The notes beneath the pieces were generated by a model. The model worked only from the letters and a program-made list of their open reading frames with translations, made no database searches and was not told where the DNA came from. Of a DNA stretch of 38,980 bases, positions 24,272 to 38,980 are shown one piece after another (the first letter of the stretch is position 1; every line of letters starts with the position of its first letter). The position numbers were made by a program, and so were the translations under genes. Location of the stretch: positions 1 through 38,980 of the forward strand of contig JAUNNH010000017.1 in assembly GCA_030531505.1 (NCBI GenBank). The letters are read 5' to 3'. The DNA is from Eubacteriales bacterium. Its GTDB lineage: Bacteria; Bacillota; Clostridia; Oscillospirales; Oscillospiraceae.

Positions 24272-26335
24272 ATGAACGAAAAATACGCTCCTTTATTTAC
24301 TCCGTTCAAAGTGGGCAATGTGGAGATCAAGAACCGCATCGTCCAGTGTTCCATGGGCGGCACCTCTCTGTTCGGCTGGCTGGAGCCCTGCCACTTCGAT
24401 AAAGAAGCGGCCCACTTCCTGCTCCAGCGCGCGCAGGACGGCGTCGGCCTGATCCTGCCCGGCATGCAGTGCGTCCGCGATACGATGGGCTGCCGCTGGC
24501 TGTATCAGAACAAGCCCATGTTCCGTGAGCTCGCCCAGTGGATGCCCGAGTTCCACAAGACCGGCGCCAAGCTCTTCATTCAGCTGGCCGCCGGCTTCGG
24601 CCGCTCCATGGCCGTCACCCCGTGGATGGTCGAGCTGAACAACCACCCCCTGCTCGGCAAGCTCGCCAGCCCCTTTGTGGACGTCTCCTTCTCCTGCGCC
24701 TCCGCTTCCGCCACGCCCAACCGCTGGCAGGAGGACATGCTCTCCCGTCCCATGACCGTGGAAGAGATCCACGAGATGGTCTATGCCTTCGGCCAGACCG
24801 CCAAGCTCCTGCGTGAGGCCGGCGTCGACGGCGTTGAGATCCACGCCGTGCACGAGGGCTATCTGCTCGACCAGTTCACCATCGAGAACTGGAACAACCG
24901 TACCGACCAGTACGGCGGCTCCTTCGAGAACCGCTTCCGCTTCCCCGTGGAGATCGTGCAGGAGATCAAGCGCCAGGCCGGCGCGGACTTCCCCGTCTCC
25001 CTGCGCTACTCCGTCGTCTCCAAGACCAAGGCCTGGGGCCACGGCGCCATGCCCGGCGAGGAGTTCGAGGAGTTCGGCCGCGACATGCCCGAGTCCGAGC
25101 GCGCCGTCAAGTATCTGCAGGACGCCGGCTACGACATGCTCAACGCCGACAACGGCACCTACGACGCCTGGTACTGGGCTCACCCGCCTCAGTACATGCC
25201 GGATAACTGCAACCTCGAGGATGTCGAGCACGTCCGTCAGTTCGTGACCATCCCCGTCGCCTGCGCCGGCCGTATGGATCCGGTCAAGGCCGCCGAGGAG
25301 ATCGCCGCCGGCCGTCTGGACGCCATGGCCATCGCCCGTCAGAACCTCTGCGATCCCGACTGGATCCAGAAGATCCTGCACGACGAGGAGGACAAGATCA
25401 AGCCCTGCATCCGCTGCCACAACGGCTGCTTCAACTTCGCCAAGTACAAAGGCACCGCCAACATCCAGGCGCTGCCCGACTCCCTGCACCTGGGCCGCTG
25501 CGCCCTGCATCCGCCCACGATGCAGCACACCCGCTACAAGATCGTCCCGACCAAGCGTCCGAAGAAGGTCGCCATCATCGGCGCCGGCATCGGCGGTCTG
25601 GAGACCGCTCTGGTCCTGAAGAAGCGCGGCCACAAGCCCGTCGTCTTCGAGAAGACCGACAAGATCGGCGGCCTGTTCCTGACGGCCTCCGCCATGTCCT
25701 TCAAGGAGAACGACAAGCAGCTCGTCAAGTGGTACGAGCGCGAGGTCGCCGAGCAGGGCATCGACATCCGCTTCAACACCGAGGTCAGCGATCTGGGCAC
25801 CCTGCGCGGCTTCGACGAGATCGTCGTCGCGACCGGCTCCGTCCCCCGCACGATGCCCAACGTCAAGGGCTTCGAGAAGTGCCTGACCTTCAAGCAGCTG
25901 CTCAAGGAGAAGGTCCCCGTGGGCGACAAGGTCGTCTTCTTCGGCGGCGGCCAGTCCTCCTGCGAGGCGGCCTATGAGATGATCCTCCAGGGCAAGCACC
26001 CCGTCATCGTCGAGTACGCGAGGGACCTGGTCCCCGCGCAGAACGTCTGCCTCTCCAACGCCTCCTTCCTGCGTGACATGATGACCTACAAGAAGGTCCC
26101 CGTGTACCTGGAGAGCACGATCACCGAGATCGGCGACAAGACCGTCACCATCCGCTCCAAGGACGGCAAGACCGTGACCGAGGTCGAGTACGACAACATC
26201 GTCAACGGCATCGGCTTCGTGCCCACGCCGGTCGGCGGCAAGGGCCCGCACATCCACCGCGTCGGCGACTGCGTTGCCATCGGCAACCTGCGCACCGCCA
26301 TCTGGCGCGCCTGGGACGTCGCGATGAAGATCTGA
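24272..26335 (+). CDS. Old Yellow Enzyme-type enoate / 2,4-dienoyl reductase (FMN, 4Fe-4S, FAD)
   Basis: 687 aa, similar in size to FadH, BaiCD/BaiH and 2-enoate reductases. Residues 1-370 form the FMN TIM barrel: LFTPFKVGNVEIKNRIVQCS, FIQLAAGFGRS, VEIHAVHEGYLLDQFTIENW, NNRTDQYGGSFENRFRFPVE and NADNGTYDAWYWAHPP. An Fe-S site follows: Cys379, Cys382, Cys386 (CIRCHNGCF) and Cys410 (LGRCALHP); the 23-residue gap before the last Cys is longer than I expect (about 11). The FAD/NAD(P)H domain has VAIIGAGIGGLETALVLKKR, VFEKTDKIGGLF and VVFFGGGQSSCEAAYEMI, ending HRVGDCVAIGNLRTAIWRAW. Such enzymes reduce activated C=C bonds of enoates, dienoyl-CoAs or steroid enones; the substrate here is open. GAGGGA precedes ATG 24272. 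Codon bias is strong, suggesting high expression. Confidence 0.88.
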   Translation: MNEKYAPLFTPFKVGNVEIKNRIVQCSMGGTSLFGWLEPCHFDKEAAHFLLQRAQDGVGLILPGMQCVRDTMGCRWLYQNKPMFRELAQWMPEFHKTGAKLFIQLAAGFGRSMAVTPWMVELNNHPLLGKLASPFVDVSFSCASASATPNRWQEDMLSRPMTVEEIHEMVYAFGQTAKLLREAGVDGVEIHAVHEGYLLDQFTIENWNNRTDQYGGSFENRFRFPVEIVQEIKRQAGADFPVSLRYSVVSKTKAWGHGAMPGEEFEEFGRDMPESERAVKYLQDAGYDMLNADNGTYDAWYWAHPPQYMPDNCNLEDVEHVRQFVTIPVACAGRMDPVKAAEEIAAGRLDAMAIARQNLCDPDWIQKILHDEEDKIKPCIRCHNGCFNFAKYKGTANIQALPDSLHLGRCALHPPTMQHTRYKIVPTKRPKKVAIIGAGIGGLETALVLKKRGHKPVVFEKTDKIGGLFLTASAMSFKENDKQLVKWYEREVAEQGIDIRFNTEVSDLGTLRGFDEIVVATGSVPRTMPNVKGFEKCLTFKQLLKEKVPVGDKVVFFGGGQSSCEAAYEMILQGKHPVIVEYARDLVPAQNVCLSNASFLRDMMTYKKVPVYLESTITEIGDKTVTIRSKDGKTVTEVEYDNIVNGIGFVPTPVGGKGPHIHRVGDCVAIGNLRTAIWRAWDVAMKI

Positions 26336-29971: not shown

Positions 29972-30149
29972 GATGGCGAAATCAATCGAGGTTTCGATTG
30001 ATTTCGCTGCCAAACGACAGGTTTGGCAGCGAATGATTCATAGAATCATTCGCCCAATGCTCATTGCAATGAGTATATGGCAAAACAGCCAAGCTGTTTT
30101 GCTGCGCCGTAAAGCGGCGCGGCGAAAAGCTTTTTGGCTTTTCGCCATC
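29972..30149 (-). repeat. Array of seven tandem hairpins in the GH13 leader
   Basis: Back-to-back palindromes, each with a different stem: 29976-30007 (14 bp, loop GGTT), 30008-30028 (8 bp), 30029-30053 (10 bp), 30054-30080 (centre CTCATTGCAATGAG), 30080-30102 (10 bp), 30104-30120 (6 bp), 30121-30146 (10 bp). An outer inverted repeat GATGGCGAAA (29972-29981) with TTTCGCCATC (30140-30149) encloses the set. Almost every base is in a stem. It lies in the transcribed 5' leader predicted from the promoter at 30178-30206. I saw no second copy in this window. Confidence 0.9.
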
Positions 30150-30177
30150 TTATAATCATTATGCATGGAATGGGGGT

Positions 30178-30206
30178 ATTATACGCGCTTTGCGCGCAAA
30201 AGGCAA
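30178..30206 (-). promoter_or_regulatory. Promoter upstream of the hairpin array and GH13 gene
   Basis: Minus strand TTGCCT (30201-30206), 17-nt spacer, TATAAT (30178-30183). The spacer contains the self-complementary GCGCGCAAAGCGCG. The predicted leader is about 225 nt. Confidence 0.7.
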
Positions 30207-30236
30207 GCGCCGGTCAGACTTCGGGACCGGGCCGGA

Positions 30237-30271
30237 TAAAAAGAAAAACCGGGCGGCACCTGCCGCCCGGT
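30237..30271 (-). terminator. Terminator of the STAS-kinase gene
   Basis: 10-bp stem ACCGGGCGGC/GCCGCCCGGT with ACCT loop (30248-30271), followed on the minus strand by TTTTTCTTTTT. Confidence 0.9.
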
Positions 30272-30294
30272 ATACGCGCCTTGTCTGCGCTTCC

Positions 30295-31506
30295 TCAGCC
30301 CTCCGCCGCGATCCCGCTCCCCGCTTCGCCGCGCTCGAAGAGCAGCGTGTCGTTCCTCTCCAGCAGCTCCAGCAGCTCCGAGGTCCAGAGCGCGATCTCC
30401 GCCCGGCCGCTCTCGCTCTCCAGCCCGCGGCGGCGGATACTGCTGCGGATCATGCGGGTGTAGCCGAGTATGCGCGCCTTCTCCTCCACCGCGCGGAGCC
30501 TCGCCGGATCGTCGGTCCCCAGATAGCCCGCCAGCGCCTTGCGCCAGAAGGCCTCTCCCGTCTCATGCTCAAAGCCCTGGAAGCGCCGGATCTTCTCGTG
30601 ATCCCACTCCGAGAAGCCGACGAAGGCGTTGTATATGGACGCCAGCTCAAAGATCGGATGGCCCACCGAGAGGGTCTCCATATCGATCAGCAGCACCTCG
30701 TCGTCCTGCAGCTCGAGGTTTTTGGTATGGTAGTCCCCGTGGAGCATGTGGTCGTCGCAGGGGACCGCCTCCACCAGCGCGCAGAGCTTCTCCCCCGCCG
30801 CCGCCGGCAGATAGTCCCGCATGAAGCGCGCCCATCCGACGGCCCGCTGCTTCATGTCCGGGAGCTTCCCGGCCGGCACGCGGGTCCCGTGGATCTTCCG
30901 GAGCATGGTCACGAACTCCCGCACGCACCAGTCCAGCTTCTCCGGCTCGGCGGCCAGGATCTCGGAAAGGGAGCGGGCGTTGAGCAGCTCGAACACGCTG
31001 CCGTAGCTCTCGCCCACCCGGACCACGTCGTAGGAGATCGCCGTCGGGATGCCGAGGATCAGCGCGAGCTTGGCGACCTCGCGCTCATGCTGGATCTCCG
31101 AGAGCGCGTCGGCGTTGTTGTAGACCTTGACCACGTTGTCCCGGTCGATGCGGTAGATCGTGCCGTTCGAGCCGTGCCCGATCACCTCGCAGCCCTCGAT
31201 CGACACGACGCGGCAGGCCCTTTTGACCGTCATCATCTCGGTGAAGCCGGTCATGTCGAGGATCCCGTAGACCTCGTCGCTCACGCCCTCAAGCGTCAGC
31301 GCACCATGGCGCTTCCTCACGCGCAGCAGGACGCGCAGCCCGGCACTGGAAATATATTCCAGTCCCGAGGCGTCGATCACGACGGGCAGCCCCTCCTTCC
31401 CCGTCAGGCGGGTGAGGATATCGCTCTCGACGGCGGAGGCGTTTGTCGAATCGATCCGCCCGTCGAGGCGGATCCGGGCGCAAGGCGTTTCGTTCTGCTG
31501 TGTCAT
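30295..31506 (-). CDS. STAS domain fused to an aminoglycoside-phosphotransferase-like kinase (TIGR02172-like)
   Basis: 403 aa. Residues 1-105 are a STAS/anti-anti-sigma domain: LDGRIDSTNASAVESDI and IDASGLEYISSAGLRVLLRV (SSAG, with the phosphorylatable-serine position kept). From about 115 the protein is a kinase-like fold: VIGHGSNGTIYRIDRDNVVK (nucleotide loop and Lys), LHGDYHTKNLELQDDEVLLI (catalytic HGD..N) and the metal Asp in LIDMETLSVGHPIFELA. The C-terminal region of the kinase part resembles the TIGR02172 family of putative phosphotransferases. Such a fusion may link a small-molecule or protein kinase to a partner-switching pathway; its substrate is unknown. GGAAGGGA precedes ATG 31506; upstream in-frame extension has no ribosome site. 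Monocistronic. Confidence 0.85.
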   Translation of the reverse strand: MTQQNETPCARIRLDGRIDSTNASAVESDILTRLTGKEGLPVVIDASGLEYISSAGLRVLLRVRKRHGALTLEGVSDEVYGILDMTGFTEMMTVKRACRVVSIEGCEVIGHGSNGTIYRIDRDNVVKVYNNADALSEIQHEREVAKLALILGIPTAISYDVVRVGESYGSVFELLNARSLSEILAAEPEKLDWCVREFVTMLRKIHGTRVPAGKLPDMKQRAVGWARFMRDYLPAAAGEKLCALVEAVPCDDHMLHGDYHTKNLELQDDEVLLIDMETLSVGHPIFELASIYNAFVGFSEWDHEKIRRFQGFEHETGEAFWRKALAGYLGTDDPARLRAVEEKARILGYTRMIRSSIRRRGLESESGRAEIALWTSELLELLERNDTLLFERGEAGSGIAAEG

Positions 31507-31537
31507 CGGTGTTCGTCCCTTCCTGCATATCGGGAGC

Positions 31538-31566
31538 AGTATACCATGATCCGGCCCCTTTTTCAA
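31538..31566 (-). promoter_or_regulatory. Promoter of the STAS-kinase gene
   Basis: Minus strand TTGAAA (31561-31566), 17-nt spacer, TATACT (31538-31543). Confidence 0.8.
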
Positions 31567-31614
31567 GCGCTCTCTGCCTGACAGCCCCAGCTCCGGCATA
31601 GCCTGATGGCTAGG

Positions 31615-31642
31615 AAAAGGGCTGCGGCATACACCGCAGCCC
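31615..31642 (-). terminator. Terminator of the flavoenzyme operon
   Basis: 9-bp stem GGGCTGCGG/CCGCAGCCC (31619-31642), then TTTTCC on the minus strand, just past the reductase stop. Confidence 0.75.
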
Positions 31643-31658
31643 CTTGTGTCGGGAGTGC

Positions 31659-32849
31659 TTACATGATGGGGATCTTGATCTTCAGATCGCTCAGCGGCCA
31701 GGAGGAGCAGGCGTGGAACCAGCCCATCTCCTTGTCCATGCGCCGGCGGCCGTCGCCGATCGGGGAGACGAAGATCTCGCCCTCCAGCAGATGGCTGCGG
31801 CAGAAGCCGCACTCGCCGTTGCGGCAGTGGGTGTCGATGGCGATGCCCGCGCGCTCGAGCGCCACCGCCACCGGCTCGGCGGCCGCGGCCTCGATCACAT
31901 CCTCGCGGATGCCGCGCACGACGGTGATCTTGAAGGTCTTGGTCTCGGTGCCCTTCGGGTAGCCGGGGAGCGTGGAGACGTCGGCCGGGTTATTGACCAC
32001 GTCGTGCCGGAAGCGCCGGTCGGACACGCCCATCTCGTCCAGCGCCTTCTTCACGAAGCGGTACATCGGCAGCGGGCCGCAGAAGAGATAGGTGCAGTCG
32101 GGCGTGGAATACTTCTCGATGATCTCGCGGGTGATGAAGCCCTTCTCGCCATCCCAGTCCGGCTCGTCGGAGAGGACGTGCACGACCTTGACGTCCGGGC
32201 AGGCGGCCTCGATCGCGGCGAGCTCGTCCTTCAGCACGATGTCGTTGGCCTTGACCGAGCCGTAGAGGATCGTGAGCTTGCAGCCCTTCATCTTGCCGTA
32301 AGCGATCTCCTTGGCCATGGAGTGGAAGGGCGTGATGCCCGAGCCGCCCGCCAGGGCCACGAGCTCCTTCGAGTCGCGCAGCGGCTCCCAGTAGAAGAAG
32401 CCGAAGGGCAGCGCGCCCTCGAGCGTATCGCCCACCTTCACGTTCTCGAACAGATAGTCCGGCACGAGGTAGGGGACGTTGCGGCGCACGGTGATCTCAA
32501 AGAAGGGGTGCTCGCCCCGGGCCTCGAAGGGCGCGGAGGAGATGGTGTAGGGGCGGGAGAGCACGCTCTCGCCGATCTTCAGGCGGAAGTTCGCATACTG
32601 CCCGCTCTGGAACACCGGGATATGCCCGTCCGCCGACTCGAAGCGGAACACGCGGGAGCTCGGCGAGGCCTCGCGGATATCCACGACCTTGAAGAGCATG
32701 TGCTCCGGGTGCAGCTTGTCGGCCAGCTCCCGGATCGGGTCGCGGGGATCGGGGATCGGAGAGCCCTTGGCGAAATTCTCTTCTCTCAGCCTGGTGACAC
32801 GGGAGGCTCCGCCGATGTCCTGCAGAAAGCCCTTGACTTTAATACTCAT
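31659..32849 (-). CDS. NAD(P)H:ferredoxin-type reductase with C-terminal 2Fe-2S domain
   Basis: 396 aa. After about 45 unique N-terminal residues comes a ferredoxin-NADP reductase module: flavin-binding barrel with SRPYTISSAPFEARG, nucleotide domain with LVALAGGSGITPFHSMAKEI and YLFCGPLPMYRFVKKAL. The last 90 residues are a plant-type ferredoxin: THCRNGECGFCRSHLLEGE supplies three Cys of the Cx4Cx2C set and WFHACSSWP the fourth. Such proteins pass electrons from NAD(P)H via FAD and 2Fe-2S to a partner oxidoreductase. The gene begins 4 nt after the CrtI-like gene, which makes that flavoenzyme its likely electron acceptor. Phenol/benzoate-type oxygenase reductases share this architecture, but no oxygenase is nearby and the host looks anaerobic. 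Confidence 0.9.
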   Translation of the reverse strand: MSIKVKGFLQDIGGASRVTRLREENFAKGSPIPDPRDPIRELADKLHPEHMLFKVVDIREASPSSRVFRFESADGHIPVFQSGQYANFRLKIGESVLSRPYTISSAPFEARGEHPFFEITVRRNVPYLVPDYLFENVKVGDTLEGALPFGFFYWEPLRDSKELVALAGGSGITPFHSMAKEIAYGKMKGCKLTILYGSVKANDIVLKDELAAIEAACPDVKVVHVLSDEPDWDGEKGFITREIIEKYSTPDCTYLFCGPLPMYRFVKKALDEMGVSDRRFRHDVVNNPADVSTLPGYPKGTETKTFKITVVRGIREDVIEAAAAEPVAVALERAGIAIDTHCRNGECGFCRSHLLEGEIFVSPIGDGRRRMDKEMGWFHACSSWPLSDLKIKIPIM

Positions 32850-32853
32850 TTTC

Positions 32854-34401
32854 TCACAGCCTCCCTTTCTTCTCCATGTCTTCCTTCACGCCCTTGGCGG
32901 CCGCGCGGCCGTTGGTGATCTGCGGGCCCATGCCGTCGCCGGACATGCCGTGCGCCCCGGCAAACTCCAGGCCCTCGATGAAGTGATCCTTCTCCTTCAT
33001 CTGCAGACGCGCCACCGCGTGGTCCTCCATGGAGTGGAGGTAGCCGTAGATGTTGCCCTTCCAGGCGCCGACGTAGTGCGAGACCGTCATGGGCGTGGTG
33101 ACCTCGATCTCGGTGATGCGGGGCCGGAAATCGACCTTGGTGATCTTGATGCACTCCTCGATCATCTCGGAGGCGAGGCGCCGCTTGAGATCGAAGTAGT
33201 CCTCCTCCTTCACGCTCTCAAAGGGCTTGGAGGGCACCAGCGCCGTGATGGAGAGCTGGGTGATCCCCTCGGGCAGGGTGGGGTTGGCGTGATTGAGGCA
33301 GATGGTGGTGATGTAGTTATAGGGCTCGGTGATGTTGGCGTAGTTCTCCCAGATCTCGTTGGTATCCATCGTGGTGCCGGAGAAGGTGGAGTAATCGGTG
33401 ATGCCGTTCTCCTCCGGCGTGCCCTCGATGACCATGATGACGGACACGGGCACGACGGAGAGCTTGCGGTTGTTGATCATCCGGATCGCGCCTTCGGGTA
33501 CCTCGCTCAGCGGCTCGATCATCTGGCTGTAGACCCGGTTGGGATAGGGGCCGGAGATGACGTAGTCGCAGTGGATCTCGTCCCCGCGCGCGGTGCGCAC
33601 ACCGTAGACCTTGCCGTCCTTCACCAGGATCTTCTCGACCTCCTGGTTGAACTCGTACTGCGCGCCGTTTTCCTCGCACTTGGCCTGCAGCTTCATGCTC
33701 ATCTCATGGCTGAAGCCGCGGCAGACGTAGGAGCCGGTGAAGTAGTCGGCCATCAGGAAGGCGTAGATCGTGAAGGGCAGGTCGTCCATGCGGTTGCCGA
33801 CGTAGATCCAGTAGGGCGTCAGCATCTCGACCGCCTTCTTCGGCAGATGGAAGGTGTCGATGACCTCGGTCGCGGTATAGCCCACCGTCTTGACGAAGTC
33901 GGGGTGCTTGAGCAGCATCTGCAGCTTGCTCATCTGGTGGGTGGAGAGGTAGTTCATGCTGTCGTACACGCGGCGGCAGAGCAGCATCAGCTCGTGCACC
34001 TTCTCATAGGTGCCGGGGCAGACCTCGTCGATCTCCTTGGCGACGGTGGTGTAGCTGTCGTCGTAGTCCGGGTGCAGCACCTTGTCGATGCCGGAGTTCG
34101 GCAGGACGACGCGGTAGCACTCGGGCACGGGCAGCCAGTCGATATCGACGCCCATGTCCTCGAAGAACTGGCCGACCTTCAGGCGCTTGCCCGGCTGGCC
34201 GATGGACATCATCTCATGCAGCGTCGCCTCGATCTCGCGGCCGTTGCGCACGAAATCGGTCGCAAGGCCGCCGGGCATGTTGTGCTTCTCGAGGATCAGG
34301 ATGTCCTTGATGCCCCAGGCCTGCAGCTGCAGGCAGGCCGACATGCCGGCGAGCGCGCCGCCGATGATGACCACATCGTAATGGTCTTTATAGAAATTCA
34401 T
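32854..34401 (-). CDS. CrtI / retinol-saturase-like FAD-dependent oxidoreductase
   Basis: 515 aa. N-terminal FAD site YDVVIIGGALAGMSACLQLQ, LEKHNMPGGLATDF; C-terminal flavin/closing motif EFAGAHGMSGDGMGPQITNG, typical of the phytoene desaturase/retinol saturase/amine oxidase group. The middle part (YWIYVGNRMDDLPFTIYAFL, YVCRGFSHEMSMKLQAKCEE) resembles the substrate domain of CrtI-like proteins. Members either introduce or saturate double bonds in lipophilic chains. Carotenoid genes are absent here; the neighbours are a 2Fe-2S reductase and a PUFA-isomerase-like gene, so saturation of a conjugated acyl chain is the more attractive role (inference). GAAAGGA precedes ATG 34401. Repeat B lies between it and the isomerase gene. 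Confidence 0.82.
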   Translation of the reverse strand: MNFYKDHYDVVIIGGALAGMSACLQLQAWGIKDILILEKHNMPGGLATDFVRNGREIEATLHEMMSIGQPGKRLKVGQFFEDMGVDIDWLPVPECYRVVLPNSGIDKVLHPDYDDSYTTVAKEIDEVCPGTYEKVHELMLLCRRVYDSMNYLSTHQMSKLQMLLKHPDFVKTVGYTATEVIDTFHLPKKAVEMLTPYWIYVGNRMDDLPFTIYAFLMADYFTGSYVCRGFSHEMSMKLQAKCEENGAQYEFNQEVEKILVKDGKVYGVRTARGDEIHCDYVISGPYPNRVYSQMIEPLSEVPEGAIRMINNRKLSVVPVSVIMVIEGTPEENGITDYSTFSGTTMDTNEIWENYANITEPYNYITTICLNHANPTLPEGITQLSITALVPSKPFESVKEEDYFDLKRRLASEMIEECIKITKVDFRPRITEIEVTTPMTVSHYVGAWKGNIYGYLHSMEDHAVARLQMKEKDHFIEGLEFAGAHGMSGDGMGPQITNGRAAAKGVKEDMEKKGRL

Positions 34402-34422
34402 GTGATCGTCCTTTCATGAATA

Positions 34423-34626
34423 GAGGGCAAAGGCTTTTGCCCTCATACCGTAGAAAAGCCCATGTGGCCAGGCTTGGACGCGCATGGGGAGAGCGCGGGA
34501 GGGGATTGGGTATTCCCTCTCGCGTTTGATTGACACAAAAAGGGGAACTTTTTCGGAAGTTCCTCTTTTTGTGCTTCAAGCTGTCGACAAGGTGTCGACA
34601 GCTTGAGAGGGCAAAGGCTGCCCTCT
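34423..34626 (+). repeat. Structured repeat, copy B, with its duplicated flanking hairpins
   Basis: Core 34445-34606, same three-hairpin layout as copy A: 34494-34524, 34534-34573, 34576-34606. It is bracketed by a locus-specific hairpin present twice: 34423-34444 (GAGGGCAAA/TTTGCCCTC) and 34606-34626 (AGAGGGC/GCCCTCT); the right copy lacks three T. Orientation is + as in copy A, but here the neighbouring genes are on the minus strand, so the transcript would carry the complement. Effects on the isomerase-saturase co-transcription are not known. Confidence 0.85.
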
Positions 34627-34645
34627 GTTATTTGTCTTGTTCCGC

Positions 34646-36034
34646 TTAGAAGAAGCGGTCCACCAGCTCGCGGGAATACTCGGCCGTCTCGTCCATGTCG
34701 CCGAAGGACATGACCTCGCCGGCGTAGTAGGTGTCGTACTTGCCCTGCATCGCCTCGACCTTGTCGTACCAGCCGGCGGCATAGTCCTCGGAGAAGACAT
34801 GGGGGAAGTAGTACACGGACCACTCGTTGATGACGTTGGAGGCGGGGTTGTGCATGGTCTTGAGGTCGTCGAGCACCATCTTCCTGCAGGTGTCGTACGG
34901 GATCTCCGCCTTCTTCTGGTGCTTGCGCAGGGCGTAGGTGGTGATGACCTGGTTGATCTCGTCCCTCCAGCGGCGATAATAGACCATCAGATGGCCGAGC
35001 TTCTCGGGCACCATGTTGTCGAAGACATAGTAGGAGATCTCGGGGTGATCCTCGGGCTTGGTCTCCACGGCCAGCACGTCGTAGCGCTCGTAGTCGATCT
35101 TGGAGAAGAGCTCCTTCTCGTCCTCGCGGGCGTCGAAGTACTCGACCATGCCCTTCTGGCCGTCCGTGCGCTTGTTGGGGATATAGAGCGGGGCGGTGAC
35201 GATGATCTTGTCGTACTCCTCGACCTCGCCGTTCACGGTCACAAAGACCTTGCCGTCGCGGCGCTCGACCTTCTCGATGGCGCTGTTGAGGCGGGCGGGG
35301 TGCTTGAGGTGATCGTTCAGCTGCTCCCAGATGTACTGGGTGCCATCCTTCCAGGTCCAGAGGTTGACCTTGACGAAGTTCATGCAGGTCTGGAAGTCCA
35401 GATACTTCAGGACGTAGGCCGCGGGGATCTCGTCAAAGTAGCCGTAGCCGAAGGAGGTGAAGGGTCCGATCCAGATCTTCTGGACCAGGGGCACGCCGTT
35501 CATCTCGCAGAAGTCTTTAAAGGGCATGGCCAGATCCTTCAGGTTGGGGTTCACGCCCTCGACCTTCTCACGGCCCGGGGTGACGGCATAGCCGTCGTAA
35601 CGGCCCTCGGCGACGCCGCGGTGGCCGTTCACGTCATAGCCCTGATACTTGGTCTCCAGGAGCTCGCCGAACTTCGTGAGCTGCTTCTTCATCTTCAGCA
35701 GCCAGGGGTTGCGGATGATGTTGCCGAGGGTGCGGGCAAAGGGCTCGATCACGTTGCCGGCGCCGTCCTTGTAGTTGCGGTTCAGCTTCGGGCCGTCGTG
35801 GGTGATGCCGCAGAACTCCTCCACGTCGTGAACGGCGTAGTAGCTCGGCACGCCCATGATGGCGCCCATCTCATAACGGCGTCCGTTGTAGTGCGGCGAC
35901 CAGCACTTGCCGCCGACGCGGTCGAGGCGCTCGAGGATGCTGTAGTTCTCGTAGCCCTTCTTTTCCAGATACATGCCGGCAGACAGACCCGCAGGGCCAC
36001 CGCCGACGATGCAGATCCGGATGTTCTTATCCAT
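34646..36034 (-). CDS. FAD-dependent polyunsaturated fatty acid isomerase (C. acnes PAI-like)
   Basis: 462 aa flavoprotein of the amine-oxidase fold. FAD site ICIVGGGPAGLSAGMYLEKK, then ILERLDRVGGKCWSPHYNGR and RRYEMGAIMGVPSYYAV; later LETKYQGYDVNGHRG, PAAYVLKYLDFQTCMNFVKV, LWTWKDGTQYIWEQL, ending YYAGEVMSFGDMDETAEYSR, then ELVDRFF. From memory these blocks closely match the structurally known Cutibacterium acnes linoleate (PUFA) isomerase, which makes trans-10,cis-12 conjugated linoleic acid by an internal hydride shift through FAD with no net redox. I could not run an alignment. Length is close to that enzyme (about 424 aa) with a modest insertion. ATG 36034 follows GGGAGGA; the ATG at 36049 overlaps that site. 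It heads the minus-strand flavoenzyme set. Confidence 0.78.
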   Translation of the reverse strand: MDKNIRICIVGGGPAGLSAGMYLEKKGYENYSILERLDRVGGKCWSPHYNGRRYEMGAIMGVPSYYAVHDVEEFCGITHDGPKLNRNYKDGAGNVIEPFARTLGNIIRNPWLLKMKKQLTKFGELLETKYQGYDVNGHRGVAEGRYDGYAVTPGREKVEGVNPNLKDLAMPFKDFCEMNGVPLVQKIWIGPFTSFGYGYFDEIPAAYVLKYLDFQTCMNFVKVNLWTWKDGTQYIWEQLNDHLKHPARLNSAIEKVERRDGKVFVTVNGEVEEYDKIIVTAPLYIPNKRTDGQKGMVEYFDAREDEKELFSKIDYERYDVLAVETKPEDHPEISYYVFDNMVPEKLGHLMVYYRRWRDEINQVITTYALRKHQKKAEIPYDTCRKMVLDDLKTMHNPASNVINEWSVYYFPHVFSEDYAAGWYDKVEAMQGKYDTYYAGEVMSFGDMDETAEYSRELVDRFF

Positions 36035-36086
36035 GGTTGTTCCTCCCATTTTTTACAAAGTTCCGACTGCTTTGGTCGTTACTCCT

Positions 36087-36115
36087 ATTATATAGCATAG
36101 CCGGGCAAAATGCAC
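36087..36115 (-). promoter_or_regulatory. Promoter of the isomerase gene (divergent pair, left)
   Basis: Minus strand TATAAT (36087-36092), 17-nt spacer and a poor -35 GTGCAT (36110-36115). The motif CGGCTATGCTATA (36091-36103 on this strand) overlaps the -10 and gives a TGn extended -10. The same motif is in the opposite promoter. Confidence 0.65.
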
Positions 36116-36146
36116 GATATTTTTTAACGTTGTGAATAAATTTTTC

Positions 36147-36176
36147 TTCCCATCCGGGGGGCGGCTATGCTATACT
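36147..36176 (+). promoter_or_regulatory. Promoter of the ligase-ACP-thioesterase operon (divergent pair, right)
   Basis: TTCCCA (36147-36152), 18-nt spacer, TATACT (36171-36176) with a TG extended -10. CGGCTATGCTATA at 36162-36174 is identical to the element at the isomerase promoter. Confidence 0.65.
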
Positions 36177-36204
36177 GTTTTCAAACAGTGAGGAGGCGGT
36201 TTGC

Positions 36205-37539
36205 GTGCGTTTTTCCAGCTTTGAAGAGATGCTCTCCCACATGGCCCGTACGGCGCCGGACGCGCCTGCGCTCCGCTATGAGGAGAGGACCTGGTCCTTC
36301 GCCGCGCTCGAGGAAGCGGTGGCGGCGCGTGCCGATGCGCTGCGCGCCGGCGGAAAGACCTGCCTCGGCCTGCTCGCTGACGGGAGCGCGGACTGCGTGA
36401 TCGAGCTCTTCGCCGCCGTGCGCGCGGGGCTGCAGCTCGTGATGCTCGATCCCTCCCTGCCGGACGAGCTGCTGCGCGGCCTGCTCGCCTATACGGATAT
36501 CGACCTGCTCTGGGGCGACGAGGAGCTCCGGGAGGAGCTTGCCGACGCGCTGACGGCGGGCGTCACGGGCGGAGCCGGCCGGATCCTCTTCTTCACCTCC
36601 GGGACCACCGAGCGCTCCAAGGCCGTCGTCCTCACCGAGCAGAGCCTCTGCGCCAGCGCCTGGAACGGTGCGCAGAAGCTGCCGCTCACACCGGCGGATA
36701 CGCTCCTCTGCCTGCTGCCGCTGGGGCATGTGTTCGGCTTCGTGTGCGGGCTTCTGTGGGGCCTCAGCTGCGGGGCCTGCGTGGCTCTCGGCCGCGGCGC
36801 CCGCCACTACGGGGACGACTTTGCTTTCTACGCCCCCACCGCCGTCTCGCTCGTGCCGCTGCTGCTGGGCTTCCTGCTCCGGCAGCGCTGCCTGAACCCG
36901 GAGCTGCAGCTGATCCTGGTCGGCGCCGGGGACTGCCCGCCCTCCTTCCTGCAGGCCGCGGCGGCCCAGGGCGTGCGCGTGAGCTTCGGCTACGGCCTGA
37001 CCGAGACCAGTTCCGGCGTCGCCATCAGCGTGACGGGCGATCCCTACGCCATGGAGGTCTGCCCGGACGACACGATCACGCTCGACGAGGACGGGGAGAT
37101 CCTGATCAGCGCGCCCACCTGCATCATGCAGGGCTACTACAAGCGCCCGGAGGACACCGCCGCCGTCCTGCGCGGCGGGCTCCTCCACACCGGCGACCTC
37201 GGCCTCTTCGACGAGGAGGGCAAGCTGCACATCACGGGGCGCAAGAAGGATGTGCTCGTCCTGCCCGACGGGACCAAGCTCTACCTGCCCGAGTACGAGG
37301 CCGCCATCGCGCAGGCCCTGGGGCGCGGCGAGCTCGCCGTCGTCCTGCGGGAGGGCCGTCCCCTGCTGCTTGTGCAGGGCGAGGGCGACGAGGAAGAGAT
37401 CCTGCGCGCGCTGCGCCCGGTCCTCGCCGAGAGACCGCGCGGGCAGCAGCTCAGCGGCGTGCGCTTCATCACGGAGGCGCTGCCGCGCACCGCCACCGGC
37501 AAGCTGAAGCGCTGGGAGCTCCGGCGCTACACAGAATAA
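36205..37539 (+). CDS. AMP-forming acyl ligase (acyl-ACP/CoA synthetase-like)
   Basis: 444 aa, shorter than most acyl-CoA synthetases (about 500-560). Adenylation motifs: ILFFTSGTTERSKAVVLTEQ (P-loop, variant after TSGTT), GYGLTETSSG, LLHTGDLGLFDEEGKLHITG, GRKKDVLVLPDG and the C-terminal lysine motif TATGKLKRWELRR. It activates a carboxylic acid as acyl-AMP and passes it to a thiol. Because an acyl carrier protein follows 19 nt downstream and a thioesterase after that, loading of ACP is plausible. Start is GTG 36205, with AGGAGG 9 nt upstream; no better ATG exists near. The trimmed N-terminal domain may reflect a dedicated protein partner. Confidence 0.87.
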   Translation: MRFSSFEEMLSHMARTAPDAPALRYEERTWSFAALEEAVAARADALRAGGKTCLGLLADGSADCVIELFAAVRAGLQLVMLDPSLPDELLRGLLAYTDIDLLWGDEELREELADALTAGVTGGAGRILFFTSGTTERSKAVVLTEQSLCASAWNGAQKLPLTPADTLLCLLPLGHVFGFVCGLLWGLSCGACVALGRGARHYGDDFAFYAPTAVSLVPLLLGFLLRQRCLNPELQLILVGAGDCPPSFLQAAAAQGVRVSFGYGLTETSSGVAISVTGDPYAMEVCPDDTITLDEDGEILISAPTCIMQGYYKRPEDTAAVLRGGLLHTGDLGLFDEEGKLHITGRKKDVLVLPDGTKLYLPEYEAAIAQALGRGELAVVLREGRPLLLVQGEGDEEEILRALRPVLAERPRGQQLSGVRFITEALPRTATGKLKRWELRRYTE

Positions 37540-37558
37540 TGAACGAGAGGTATCGAAC

Positions 37559-37804
37559 ATGAGCAGACAGGAGATCATCGACCAGATCAAGCGCGTTATT
37601 CTCGACTGCTTCCCCGACATGGACGCCGAAGAGCTGCGCGAGGACAGCGTCATCAACACCGAGACCGCCATCGATTCCATGGGCTTCGTGCTCATCATCT
37701 GCAAGCTGGAGGCCCTCTTCAACGTCAAGATCCCGGAGCGCCAGTGGCAGAAACTGCAGACCCTGGGCGACGTGGCCGACGCCATCGAGAAGCGTCTCAA
37801 GTGA
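37559..37804 (+). CDS. Acyl carrier protein
   Basis: 81 aa, acidic four-helix carrier. The phosphopantetheine serine is in ETAIDSMGFVLIICKLEALF (DSM-type site). The N-terminus is SRQEIIDQIKRVILDCFPD. The second half (NVKIPERQWQKLQTLGDVAD) fits a specialised ACP more than the fatty-acid-synthase AcpP, which usually carries DSLD at the site. GAGAGG precedes ATG 37559. Its stop codon overlaps the possible GTG of the thioesterase. It is probably loaded by the upstream ligase. Confidence 0.92.
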   Translation: MSRQEIIDQIKRVILDCFPDMDAEELREDSVINTETAIDSMGFVLIICKLEALFNVKIPERQWQKLQTLGDVADAIEKRLK

Positions 37805-37806
37805 GC

Positions 37807-38520
37807 ATGAGCGGCTACGAGAGAGCCCTGACCCTGCGCAGCAAGGATGTGGATCTCTACCGGCGGCTGCGGCTGTCGCGGCTCTTTGAGCTGCTGCAGG
37901 AGGCCGCCATCACCCACACCGAGGAGCTCGGCATGGGCCGGGAGATGACGCTCGACCGCGGGCTGCTCTGGGTCGTGACCATGCAGAGCGCCGAGATCGC
38001 GCGCATGCCGGAATACGACGAGCGCATCGTGCTGCGCTCCTGGCCGGGCGAGACGATGCACGTCTTCTTCCCCCGGCATTACCTTCTCTCCTCCGCCTCG
38101 GGCGAGACGCTGGTGCGCGCCAACGCGCTCTGGATGCTGGTGGATCAGCAGACCCGCCGCATGGTCTTCCCCGACCGCCACGGGATCGTGATCCCCGGCG
38201 AGAAGCGGGAGGAGGAGCTGCCGCTCCCCTCCGCCCCGGCCCGGCTCCCCCTCAGCGGGGAGCGGCTCTTCCCCGTCCCCTTCAGCTATGTCGATCTCAA
38301 CGGGCACATGAACAACACCCGCTACTTCGACCTGATGGAGGACTGTCTGCCCCCCGCCGCCGCCGGTGCGCGCCTGCGCCGCATCCGCACGGAGTACACG
38401 GGCGAGGCGCGCCTGGGCGATACGCTCGCGCTGCGCTGGGGCGAGCAGGACGGGAACTGGTATATGGAGGGCGTGCTGGAGAAGCCCTGCTTCCGCATGG
38501 CCATGGAATACGAAAGCTGA
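37807..38520 (+). CDS. Acyl-ACP thioesterase (FatA/FatB-like, double hotdog)
   Basis: 237 aa, the size of bacterial acyl-ACP thioesterases with two hotdog repeats. N-terminal domain: SRLFELLQEAAITHTEELGM and GLLWVVTMQSAEIARMPEYD. Second repeat: SYVDLNGHMNNTRYFDLMED, the conserved D-x-N-x-H-x-N-N-T-R-Y segment around the active site. It hydrolyses acyl-ACP to free fatty acid. Start taken as ATG 37807; a GTG at 37801 overlaps the ACP stop and is the alternative. There is only a weak ribosome site, so translation is probably coupled to the ACP gene. Confidence 0.9.
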   Translation: MSGYERALTLRSKDVDLYRRLRLSRLFELLQEAAITHTEELGMGREMTLDRGLLWVVTMQSAEIARMPEYDERIVLRSWPGETMHVFFPRHYLLSSASGETLVRANALWMLVDQQTRRMVFPDRHGIVIPGEKREEELPLPSAPARLPLSGERLFPVPFSYVDLNGHMNNTRYFDLMEDCLPPAAAGARLRRIRTEYTGEARLGDTLALRWGEQDGNWYMEGVLEKPCFRMAMEYES

Positions 38521-38531
38521 TCATGCGGAGC

Positions 38532-38578
38532 GAAAGGCCCCGCGGGACACAGGTCTGCGTCCCGCGGGGCCTTTCTAT
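38532..38578 (+). terminator. Terminator of the ligase-ACP-thioesterase operon
   Basis: 17-bp perfect GC-rich stem (38532-38548 with 38559-38575) ending in CCTTTCTAT. The T run is short, but the stem is very strong. Confidence 0.75.
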
Positions 38579-38599
38579 GCAAAATGCGTGATTTTTCTG

Positions 38600-38628
38600 T
38601 TGTAAAATGGGATCGCTTGTTGTATTAT
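38600..38628 (+). promoter_or_regulatory. Promoter of the lipoprotein gene
   Basis: TTGTAA (38600-38605), 17-nt spacer, TATTAT (38623-38628), about 35 nt before the ATG. Confidence 0.7.
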
Positions 38629-38663
38629 GGTTACATAATATTGTTTACCGGGAGGATTCCGCC

Positions 38664-38980
38664 ATGAAAAAGAAGCTCTGTCTCCTCACCTGTCTGATCC
38701 TGTCGCTGCTTGTTTTATGCGCCTGCGGCCGAAAGACCAGCAAGGTGAAGGTCACCCCCAACCCCTCGCCCGCGGCGGCCGCCACGCTCGTGACGCCTGT
38801 GCCGACCCCGGCCCCCACGCCTGTGCCCTCCAACTACCCCGTGGTCACCAAGGATCCCACCGATGAGACCGTCACCGTGAACGGCAAGTGCCAGTTCGTC
38901 ACCCGCTATGAAAACGCCAAGTGGGCCGAGTGGCATTTCGTGAGCCCCGACGGCACCCGCGATCTCACCTACCTCCAGGC
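38664..38980 (+). CDS. Putative lipoprotein, 5' part
   Basis: Runs off the right edge; 105 codons visible. The signal peptide MKKKLCLLTCLILSLLVLCA ends in a lipobox (LVLC, or LCAC one turn later), so the protein is lipid-anchored outside the membrane. A Thr/Pro/Ala-rich spacer follows (ATLVTPVPTPAPTPVPSNYP), then the start of a beta-rich domain (DETVTVNGKCQFVTRYENAK, WAEWHFVSPDG). The latter echoes small bacterial immunoglobulin-like or carbohydrate-contact domains, but no family could be assigned. GGGAGG precedes ATG 38664. Confidence 0.82.
   Translation, partial: MKKKLCLLTCLILSLLVLCACGRKTSKVKVTPNPSPAAAATLVTPVPTPAPTPVPSNYPVVTKDPTDETVTVNGKCQFVTRYENAKWAEWHFVSPDGTRDLTYLQ

Follow-up and report, generated by a model that had tools for sequence, protein, structure and literature searches.

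Gene content of the locus

The window, that is the whole stretch of 38,980 nucleotides analysed, carries six open reading frames between positions 31,659 and 38,520, at the very coordinates given in an earlier note made from the sequence alone (Table 1). Family profile searches back the individual families assigned there to the isomerase (PAI), the FAD enzyme (CrtI-like), the reductase (Red), the ligase (Lig), the ACP and the thioesterase (TE). The genes for Lig, ACP and TE diverge from those for PAI, the CrtI-like enzyme and Red. As the note had said, Red starts 4 nt past the CrtI stop (32854 versus 32849); Lig and ACP are separated by 19 nt, and the ACP and TE reading frames overlap by 4 nt (37801–37804).

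Table 1. Features of the six-gene locus (positions in the window)
Feature	Positions	Strand	Evidence
Red: 396-aa NAD(P)H/FAD reductase ending in a plant-type 2Fe-2S domain; putative electron donor of the CrtI-like enzyme	31659..32849	-	
515-aa CrtI/CrtISO/RetSat-type FAD oxidoreductase; proposed to reduce conjugated dienes	32854..34401	-	
PAI-CrtI spacer, 244 nt, with hairpins	34402..34645	.	
PAI: FAD-dependent polyunsaturated fatty acid isomerase homolog, 462 aa	34646..36034	-	2B9W homology
PAI-Lig divergent promoter region	36035..36204	.	alignment of window + 13 loci
Lig: AMP-forming acyl ligase, 444 aa	36205..37539	+	PF00501 (AMP-binding), E 1.6e-38
ACP: acyl carrier protein, 81 aa, DSM phosphopantetheine serine	37559..37804	+	PF00550 (PP-binding), E 3.1e-5
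TE: FatA/FatB-type acyl-ACP thioesterase, 239 aa	37801..38520	+	PF01643 (Acyl-ACP_TE), E 9.8e-23; PF20791, E 1.6e-8

The ligase motifs TSG[TS]T and YG[LMST][TS]E are present in 79/80 and 80/80 aligned rows, and TGK[LIVM] in only 68/80; the ACP motif DS[MLI] is found in 82/82 rows, and the thioesterase, which has a solved relative in 2own (E 3e-18), keeps D.N.H.N in 76/80. The row sets used for alignments, distances and motifs include the window, L145 and ten extra genome stretches, with at least six duplicating counted loci; the Lig of L081 and the CrtI of L149, which have in-frame stops, and matches covering less than 85% of the query were left out.

In the PAI-Lig intergenic region of the window and 13 loci, TGnTAnnnT is invariant facing Lig (in the window TATACT at 36171–36176, preceded by TG), and AnTATA is invariant at 36087–36092, where the window reads TATAAT towards PAI. 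The genes had been described as lying between terminators. That description is not supported: the eight terminator-like sites in 30000–38980 are not above chance (4.8 ± 2.2 in shuffled sequences), so that transcript boundaries cannot be drawn from them, and one minus-strand site (34563–34544) falls within the locus itself, separating PAI from CrtI, in the same spacer as a plus-strand site (34606–34626). CrtI-Red may be transcribed from a separate promoter or may depend on partial read-through from PAI.

Two further genes of the window were considered as members of the locus and rejected. The STAS/APH protein (30295–31515) has no listed match in the relatives' loci compared, and the OYE/BaiCD-like protein (24272–26335) has just partial matches of 25–31% identity in eight of them, all of which fall within an Fe-S flavoprotein of these relatives.

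Conservation and distribution

Synteny was counted in the best 80 of 313 PAI relatives, the closest ones, of which 69 and 67 had enough flank on the respective sides. Among these, CrtI and Red come next after PAI in 69/69 loci (L076 being scored as CrtI-bearing although its CrtI match is in two pieces), and Lig-ACP-TE diverge from PAI in 65/67; this gene group was absent from the stretches examined of G109 and L070. The co-occurrence that the earlier note had proposed to check is thus conserved, and the association of the six genes is not accidental. A genome of another family (G449) has all six in an identical layout at 40–57% identity. Among 200 same-family genomes, the window's own included, a CrtI ortholog (≥56% identity) is present in 13 and a PAI ortholog (≥80%) in 11, and all 11 PAI carriers have CrtI (Fisher p 2e-16, uncorrected for kinship). 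No CrtI, Red or Lig match was detected in the stretches examined around the PAI homologs of G014, G409, G494 and G467.

Protein distances correlate closely between CrtI and Red (rho 0.83) and between Lig and TE (0.80). Those of PAI correlate weakly with CrtI (0.38) and Lig (0.22), which indicates that the blocks have been reshuffled; the locus is made of three evolving blocks, namely PAI, CrtI-Red and ligase-ACP-TE. Carriage by plasmids or viruses was considered and rejected: among plasmids there was no CrtI match at 1e-30 and a single remote PAI match (26%, Photobacterium), and a pattern search for close relatives in viral contigs gave no match.

The carriers are uncultured bacteria of the gut, in many cases that of a ruminant. 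A ruminant is named in the record titles of 30 of the best 80 of 313 relatives (goats and sheep, for example), and 44 more of these 80 carry labels that we take to belong to ruminant-gut series.

Genes for an Fe-S flavoprotein, HypA and HypB, recognised by family searches, are linked to PAI in relatives; counts of such recurrent neighbours are lower bounds because contig ends truncate many of the loci. The genome of the window, which is 74% complete, has a NiFe-hydrogenase match (PF00374, 51.5 bits against a cut-off of 25.8, over positions 1–69 of 508), so the client of HypA and HypB may be an ordinary hydrogenase and need not be a novel nickel enzyme.

The isomerase

PAI belongs to the Amino_oxidase fold family in Pfam searches and is homologous over its full length to the PAI of Cutibacterium acnes (2B9W, 53.6% identity). 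The earlier note had suggested alignment with that structure: 2B9W is the best of the solved chains (E 7.1e-135) and the next one reaches 1.8e-10, a lead of about 124 orders of magnitude that eliminates an ordinary amine oxidase. Arg88, Phe168 and Phe193 (C. acnes numbering) are retained in 91/91 rows of close relatives, window included, and are likewise identical in L145 and L026; remote homologs have Tyr at 168 (L147 and L154) or Met at 193 (L153). We take Arg88 to bind the carboxylate and the two phenylalanines to act as gate or guide residues. Judged by sequence, PAI is a strong candidate for a polyunsaturated fatty acid isomerase.

The CrtI-like enzyme and its reductase

The CrtI-like enzyme, also an Amino_oxidase family member in Pfam searches, has a fold in common with solved members of the CrtI/CrtISO phytoene desaturase family, the closest being the desaturase 4rep. 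It matches the crtI_fam model TIGR02734 with 86.7 bits (E 1.4e-24; curated cut-off 238.1 bits) and the carotenoid isomerase model TIGR02730 with 70.4 bits (E 1.3e-19; curated cut-off 586.9 bits). As none of the CrtI-type models listed is matched above its curated cut-off, neither the CrtI nor the CrtISO label is established. Studied CrtI relatives mostly desaturate or isomerise rather than saturate, and their substrates are mostly isoprenoids.

Red consists of FAD_binding_6, NAD_binding_1 and Fer2 domains and has the FAD, NAD(P) and C-x4-C-x2-C...C motifs of FNR-type and plant-type 2Fe-2S proteins: R.Y[ST] in 91/92 rows, GG.G[IV]TP in 92/92 and CX4CX2C in 92/92, with C342, C347, C350 and C381 invariant in 21 aligned sequences. 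CrtI-Red pairs without PAI occur in G041 and G153 (71–80% identity), which would suit a two-component redox enzyme that is complete in itself. Further remote paralog pairs exist, and inspection of their neighbours by eye revealed no clear fatty acid genes.

Proposed pathway and alternatives

We consider it fairly probable that the locus is an island for the biohydrogenation of polyunsaturated fatty acids, in which PAI conjugates, CrtI-Red reduces and Lig, ACP and TE handle the acyl chain. PAI would bind linoleate or a similar acid by its free carboxylate; the FAD would then abstract a hydride and return it, so that one cis double bond shifts and a conjugated diene results. Homology argues strongly for the isomerisation; the product from linoleate is most likely trans-10,cis-12 CLA, a regiochemistry that we infer. 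Red would take electrons from NAD(P)H and relay them through its FAD and 2Fe-2S cluster to the FAD of its CrtI-like partner; as fold, gene pairing and coevolution suggest, this partner would add a hydride and a proton to the diene to yield a trans monoene, for instance trans-10 18:1. Ligase, ACP and thioesterase may load, handle and release the same fatty acid: Lig would charge it onto the dedicated ACP and TE would free it, with the ACP-bound chain used for part of the pathway or for delivery to lipid synthesis. This is the weakest step of the scheme, and Lig and TE acting on one ACP would cycle futilely if nothing used the ACP-bound chain. The benefit could be detoxification of dietary PUFA, disposal of reducing equivalents, or both.

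The presence of the ligase is better accounted for by membrane lipid supply than by a purely catabolic pathway. Exogenous PUFA would be isomerised, and perhaps reduced, to trans acids that the ligase loads onto ACP for phospholipid synthesis, with TE adjusting the pool; electron disposal and detoxification would then be side effects, and the isomerisation and reduction steps would be common to both readings. The dedicated ACP and ligase in 65/67 loci and the correlated distances of Lig and TE are in favour of it, but a thioesterase opposes incorporation, and no acyltransferase was recognised by eye among the recurrent neighbours, of which the flavoprotein, HypA and HypB were the ones annotated by family searches. 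We regard this as an unlikely explanation.

Somewhat less probable, in our opinion, is that CrtI-Red acts as another isomerase, redox-neutral and CrtISO-like, converting t10,c12 to t10,t12 with Red keeping the FAD reduced, so that no hydrogenation would take place in the locus. TIGR02730 scores nearly as well as crtI_fam, and CrtISO needs reduced FAD, which would explain a dedicated reductase. However, all the family matches fall short of their curated cut-offs, the closest fold is a desaturase, and an NAD(P)H reductase dedicated to this enzyme in 69/69 loci is a better fit to stoichiometric electron use than to catalytic priming. Action of the CrtI-like enzyme on another unsaturated lipid (isoprenoid, bile-acid-like or polyene), linked to PAI through a common lipid-handling island only, agrees with the usual isoprenoid substrates of its relatives, with the two genomes having CrtI-Red and no PAI (in G153 near CaiB-like and SDR-like frames, by eye) and with at least three CrtI clades accompanying PAI proteins ≥84% identical to that of the window, but is very improbable given the immediate PAI-CrtI-Red adjacency and constant order in all 69 loci and its retention in another family (G449).

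Biohydrogenation thus remains our preferred reading. A bolder version of it, which we offer tentatively and hold to be rather doubtful, pictures a mobile island for trans-10 biohydrogenation in uncultured clostridia of ruminants, combining PAI, a new two-component CLA reductase (CrtI-type enzyme and 2Fe-2S reductase) and a dedicated ACP. Coupling to the multi-Fe-S flavoprotein, HypA and HypB in many carriers would make dietary PUFA a respiratory-type electron sink, and the island would be a main genetic origin of those trans-10 fatty acids of the rumen that underlie milk fat depression.

The six-gene locus may help to explain the source of fatty acids that lower cow milk fat. In up to 80 uncultured genomes, mostly ruminant (the best 80 of 313), it puts a name to both an isomerase and a reductase pair that can be tested. 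This opens a trans-10 pathway to gene-by-gene testing, and its genes can be tracked in metagenomes and metatranscriptomes of cows affected by milk fat depression. PMC6037716 describes the chief biohydrogenating species as still unknown. According to PMC4478896, the reductase step could not be sought in genomes, as databases were without it. In the open-access literature we recognised no paper describing this six-gene locus, or a PAI together with CrtI, reductase and ACP.

Comparison with known systems

The CLA reductase of Butyrivibrio fibrisolvens, a flavin and iron enzyme reportedly described by Hughes in 1982 and Fukuda in 2007, the latter work, by its title, including the gene sequence, converts a conjugated diene to a trans monoene. 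The same step is proposed here for CrtI-Red, the likeness being one of reaction. No linoleate isomerase gene had been found in Butyrivibrio, as far as the available text of PMC6249431 goes, and a laboratory strain from the rumen is said in PMC11770317 to have been unavailable, in the context of the acnes AP1 isolate.

Within the CrtI/CrtISO/retinol saturase superfamily, the CrtI-like enzyme of the window shares the fold and the FAD-binding family matches and forms a branch of its own, with an adjoining 2Fe-2S NAD(P)H reductase. The CLA-HY/DH/DC/ER pathway of Lactobacillus plantarum is said to isomerise and saturate linoleate by means of a hydratase and an enone reductase (Kishino 2013), the overall outcome also proposed for the window locus. 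That route uses a hydratase, whereas the 74% complete genome of the window has no match to oleate hydratase (PF06100); with such matches in only 2/14 genomes tested, CLA formation by way of a hydratase is not a general feature here.

The PAI of C. acnes, compared as a protein only, shares its full length and R88/F168/F193 with the window protein, which adjoins CrtI, Red, Lig, ACP and TE. C. acnes produces t10,c12-CLA, which accumulates nearly quantitatively: 94.6% and 99.6% of linoleate was converted by 72 h in cultures of two strains, according to the accessible part of PMC11770317. A t10-18:1 peak is listed there in a C. acnes GC trace, among samples and standards, so that a trans-10 monoene need not require CrtI-Red. 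PAI homologs were reported in 2023 in 7/228 rumen MAGs, and milk t10,c12-CLA correlates with one PAI-bearing Lachnospiraceae MAG (PMC10019597); the available text of that study deals with isomerase genes only and mentions no gene cluster, reductase, ligase or ACP, whereas in the window PAI stands within a locus of six genes.

Gene content and conserved synteny

In the window, which is one of the 42 contigs (C38) of a 2.24 Mb genome that is 74% complete, the span 31659-38520 is occupied by six genes on two divergent strands.

Coordinates of the locus genes and of related features elsewhere
Feature	Location	Strand	Remarks
PAI (polyunsaturated fatty acid isomerase homolog)	34646-36034	-	Pfam: amine-oxidase-type FAD fold
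CrtI-like FAD enzyme	32854-34401	-	Pfam: amine-oxidase-type FAD fold
Red (NAD(P)H/FAD/2Fe-2S reductase)	31659-32849	-	4 nt after CrtI; Pfam: FNR core + Fer2
Lig (AMP-forming acyl ligase)	36205-37539	+	Pfam: AMP-binding
ACP (acyl carrier protein)	37559-37804	+	Pfam: PP-binding
TE (acyl-ACP thioesterase)	37801-38520	+	Pfam: acyl-ACP thioesterase
Flavoprotein, example	L144:3166-5922	-	G240, beside CrtI-Red
CrtI-Red paralog pair	L146:6648-9408 (own genome, C37)		CrtI, Red 32%, 40% identity

A genome_contigs scan with PAI gave 313 relatives, the best 80 of which (84-92% identity) were analysed. Among these 80, 69 loci extend 3.1 kb or more beyond PAI, and all of them have CrtI and Red after it in the same order; the divergent Lig, ACP and TE genes are present in 65 of the 67 with at least 3 kb before it. 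The exceptions are L042, where the set is found some 7.4 kb farther upstream, and L070, where it was not found within the 10 kb examined. Of 200 own-family genomes, own genome counted, 11 have PAI (at least 80%) and 13 CrtI (at least 56%); all 11 PAI carriers also have CrtI (Fisher 2e-16, kinship ignored), and both CrtI and Red adjoin PAI in each of the 10 relatives. Lig-ACP-TE was not found within the stretch examined of G109, and the G187 contig ends inside PAI. At least 39 of 89 loci, many of them truncated by an early contig end, contain the commonest other recognised neighbour family, whose position varies.

Two further proteins of the window can be mentioned. A STAS domain fused to an APH-type kinase domain (30295-31515) adjoins Red and has no match beside the relatives' loci. 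A BaiCD/bilirubin-reductase-like OYE flavoenzyme (24272-26335; 302.7 of 825 bits for NF041087, under the cut-off) lies outside the locus.

In an alignment of the window and 13 loci, two back-to-back -10-like boxes are kept in the PAI-Lig gap: TGnTAnnnT facing Lig, also picked up on the plus strand in a separate window scan, and AnTATA facing PAI, where the other strand of the window reads TATAAT. Their conservation suggests coordinated divergent expression of the two sides. The earlier note had placed the genes between terminators; terminator-like sites in the locus region show no excess over chance.

The isomerase

The assignment of PAI to a lipid isomerase family, proposed at the outset, is borne out by the PDB search, in which 2B9W, the polyunsaturated fatty acid isomerase of C. 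acnes, ranks first (7.1e-135), followed by an amine oxidase chain at 1.8e-10. Identity to the C. acnes protein is 53.6% for the window and 64.4% for the protein of G449, a genome of another family. The C. acnes sequence, whose numbering is used here, was aligned with 96 PAI proteins. Arg88, Phe168 and Phe193 are kept in 91/91 close-relative rows (window included, some contigs doubled) and likewise in L145 and L026; three remote proteins differ, with Tyr at 168 (L147, L154) or Met at 193 (L153). These residues reportedly serve in carboxylate binding and as a gate to the tunnel (Liavonchanka 2006). Homology strongly predicts that PAI conjugates a polyunsaturated fatty acid, and the product would probably have the trans-10,cis-12 (t10,c12) regiochemistry.

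Correlated divergence and stand-alone CrtI-Red

Protein distances were compared in a set of 69 rows, each containing PAI, CrtI, Red, Lig and TE, and ACP where present; the window, the relative L145 and some contigs in duplicate belong to this set. The correlations of pairwise distances are 0.83 for CrtI-Red and 0.80 for Lig-TE, against 0.22-0.51 for PAI with the other genes. A quick CrtI tree has at least two large clades, and the PAI proteins beside them are at least 84% identical to that of the window (best 80 of 313). These data fit a reassortment of three blocks around PAI, and a physical CrtI-Red pair.

The four cluster cysteines and the NAD(P) motif of Red are kept in 21/21 aligned rows. 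About 45 extra residues (KGFxxDxGGASRV...) at the N-terminus are common to PAI-linked Red proteins and might form a docking or membrane helix; paralogs such as L150-L152 begin with a different extension. In L150 (G446), a single Red gene lies between two CrtI paralogs.

Class-wide, PAI is matched at 1e-20 in 6 of 391 genomes and CrtI at 1e-40 in 16, the own genome counted. G449 has all six genes in the layout of the window (identities: Red 57%, CrtI 56%, PAI 53%, Lig 46%, ACP 40%, TE 43%). Its relative G240, a one-contig genome, keeps CrtI and Red and has only 3' parts of PAI and TE; these remnants abut at L144:9458-9961, a decayed locus copy. The other 11 of the 13 genomes of this family have no PAI match. 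In G041 (L142) and G153 (L143), CrtI and Red are 71-80% identical to those of the window, and PAI, Lig, ACP and TE were not found in the stretches examined. Reading frames near the G153 pair resemble, by eye, CaiB-type CoA transferases, SDRs and a ligase. In the stretches examined of G014 (PAI homolog at 51%) and of G409, G494 and G467 (24-29%), nothing matching CrtI, Red or Lig accompanies the PAI homolog. Taken together, these loci indicate that CrtI-Red accompanies a PAI subclade and can stand alone.

A linked flavoprotein module

Near PAI, HypA and HypB recur together with a GltD/NfnB-like flavoprotein, a protein of some 900 residues that carries 4Fe-4S domains. Among 38 loci of at least 21 kb, the flavoprotein is present in 21, HypA in 15 and HypB in 11; about 0.03 flavoprotein genes per locus would be expected from copy numbers in 14 genomes (chosen, not random). 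The enrichment is strong and extends to remote PAI genes. The sole flavoprotein copy (at E 1e-80) adjoins PAI in G014 and G409 and CrtI-Red in G240; in this last genome, matches to CrtI, Red, the flavoprotein, HypA and HypB span all or nearly all of their length. PAI is immediately followed by the flavoprotein reading frame in L026. Searching all contigs of the own genome placed four copies on C37, C16, C10 and C41 and none in the window; the C37 copy (L146), with HypA, directly precedes the CrtI-Red paralog pair. This distribution points to a putative role of the module in electron supply.

Hosts

A ruminant is named outright in 30 of the 80 titles (27 RGIG, 2 red deer, 1 sheep; best 80 of 313). 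The rest comprise 37 RUG, 1 Tb.RUG, 3 RUI, 3 SIG and 6 other labels; the RUG, Tb.RUG, RUI and SIG series are presumably ruminant gut collections. Named hosts are goat, sheep, roe deer, water buffalo and red deer, and several of the records stem from parts of the gut other than the rumen. Two of the 80 are non-Bacillota by title, L040 (Coriobacteriales, 4.3 kb contig) and L100 (Sphaerochaetaceae), possibly through misbinning.

Proposed pathway and comparison with known systems

The gene content, kept motifs, synteny and correlated divergence documented here can be set beside a putative mechanism in which electrons would pass from NAD(P)H through Red and CrtI to the conjugated diene, the acyl chain being carried by ligase, ACP and TE. 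By 72 h, two C. acnes strains had turned linoleate into t10,c12 conjugated linoleate (CLA) with 94.6% and 99.6% conversion (PMC11770317), and a biohydrogenation pathway would thus need a reductase pair as an extra component. A GC figure of the same paper names a trans-10 monoene (t10-18:1) peak; some trans monoene may thus arise or be present without the pair.

PAI homologs are given for 7 of 228 rumen MAGs in PMC10019597, and a passage of PMC6249431 states that no linoleate isomerase was found in Butyrivibrio. PMC4478896 states that genomes could not be searched for the fatty acid oxidoreductase. The title of Fukuda 2007, cited there, announces the sequencing of a Butyrivibrio CLA reductase gene. 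We recognised no description of this gene cluster in the open-access literature searched. On this record, the make-up of the pathway is apparently undescribed, and the isomerase at its centre is of a type already known.
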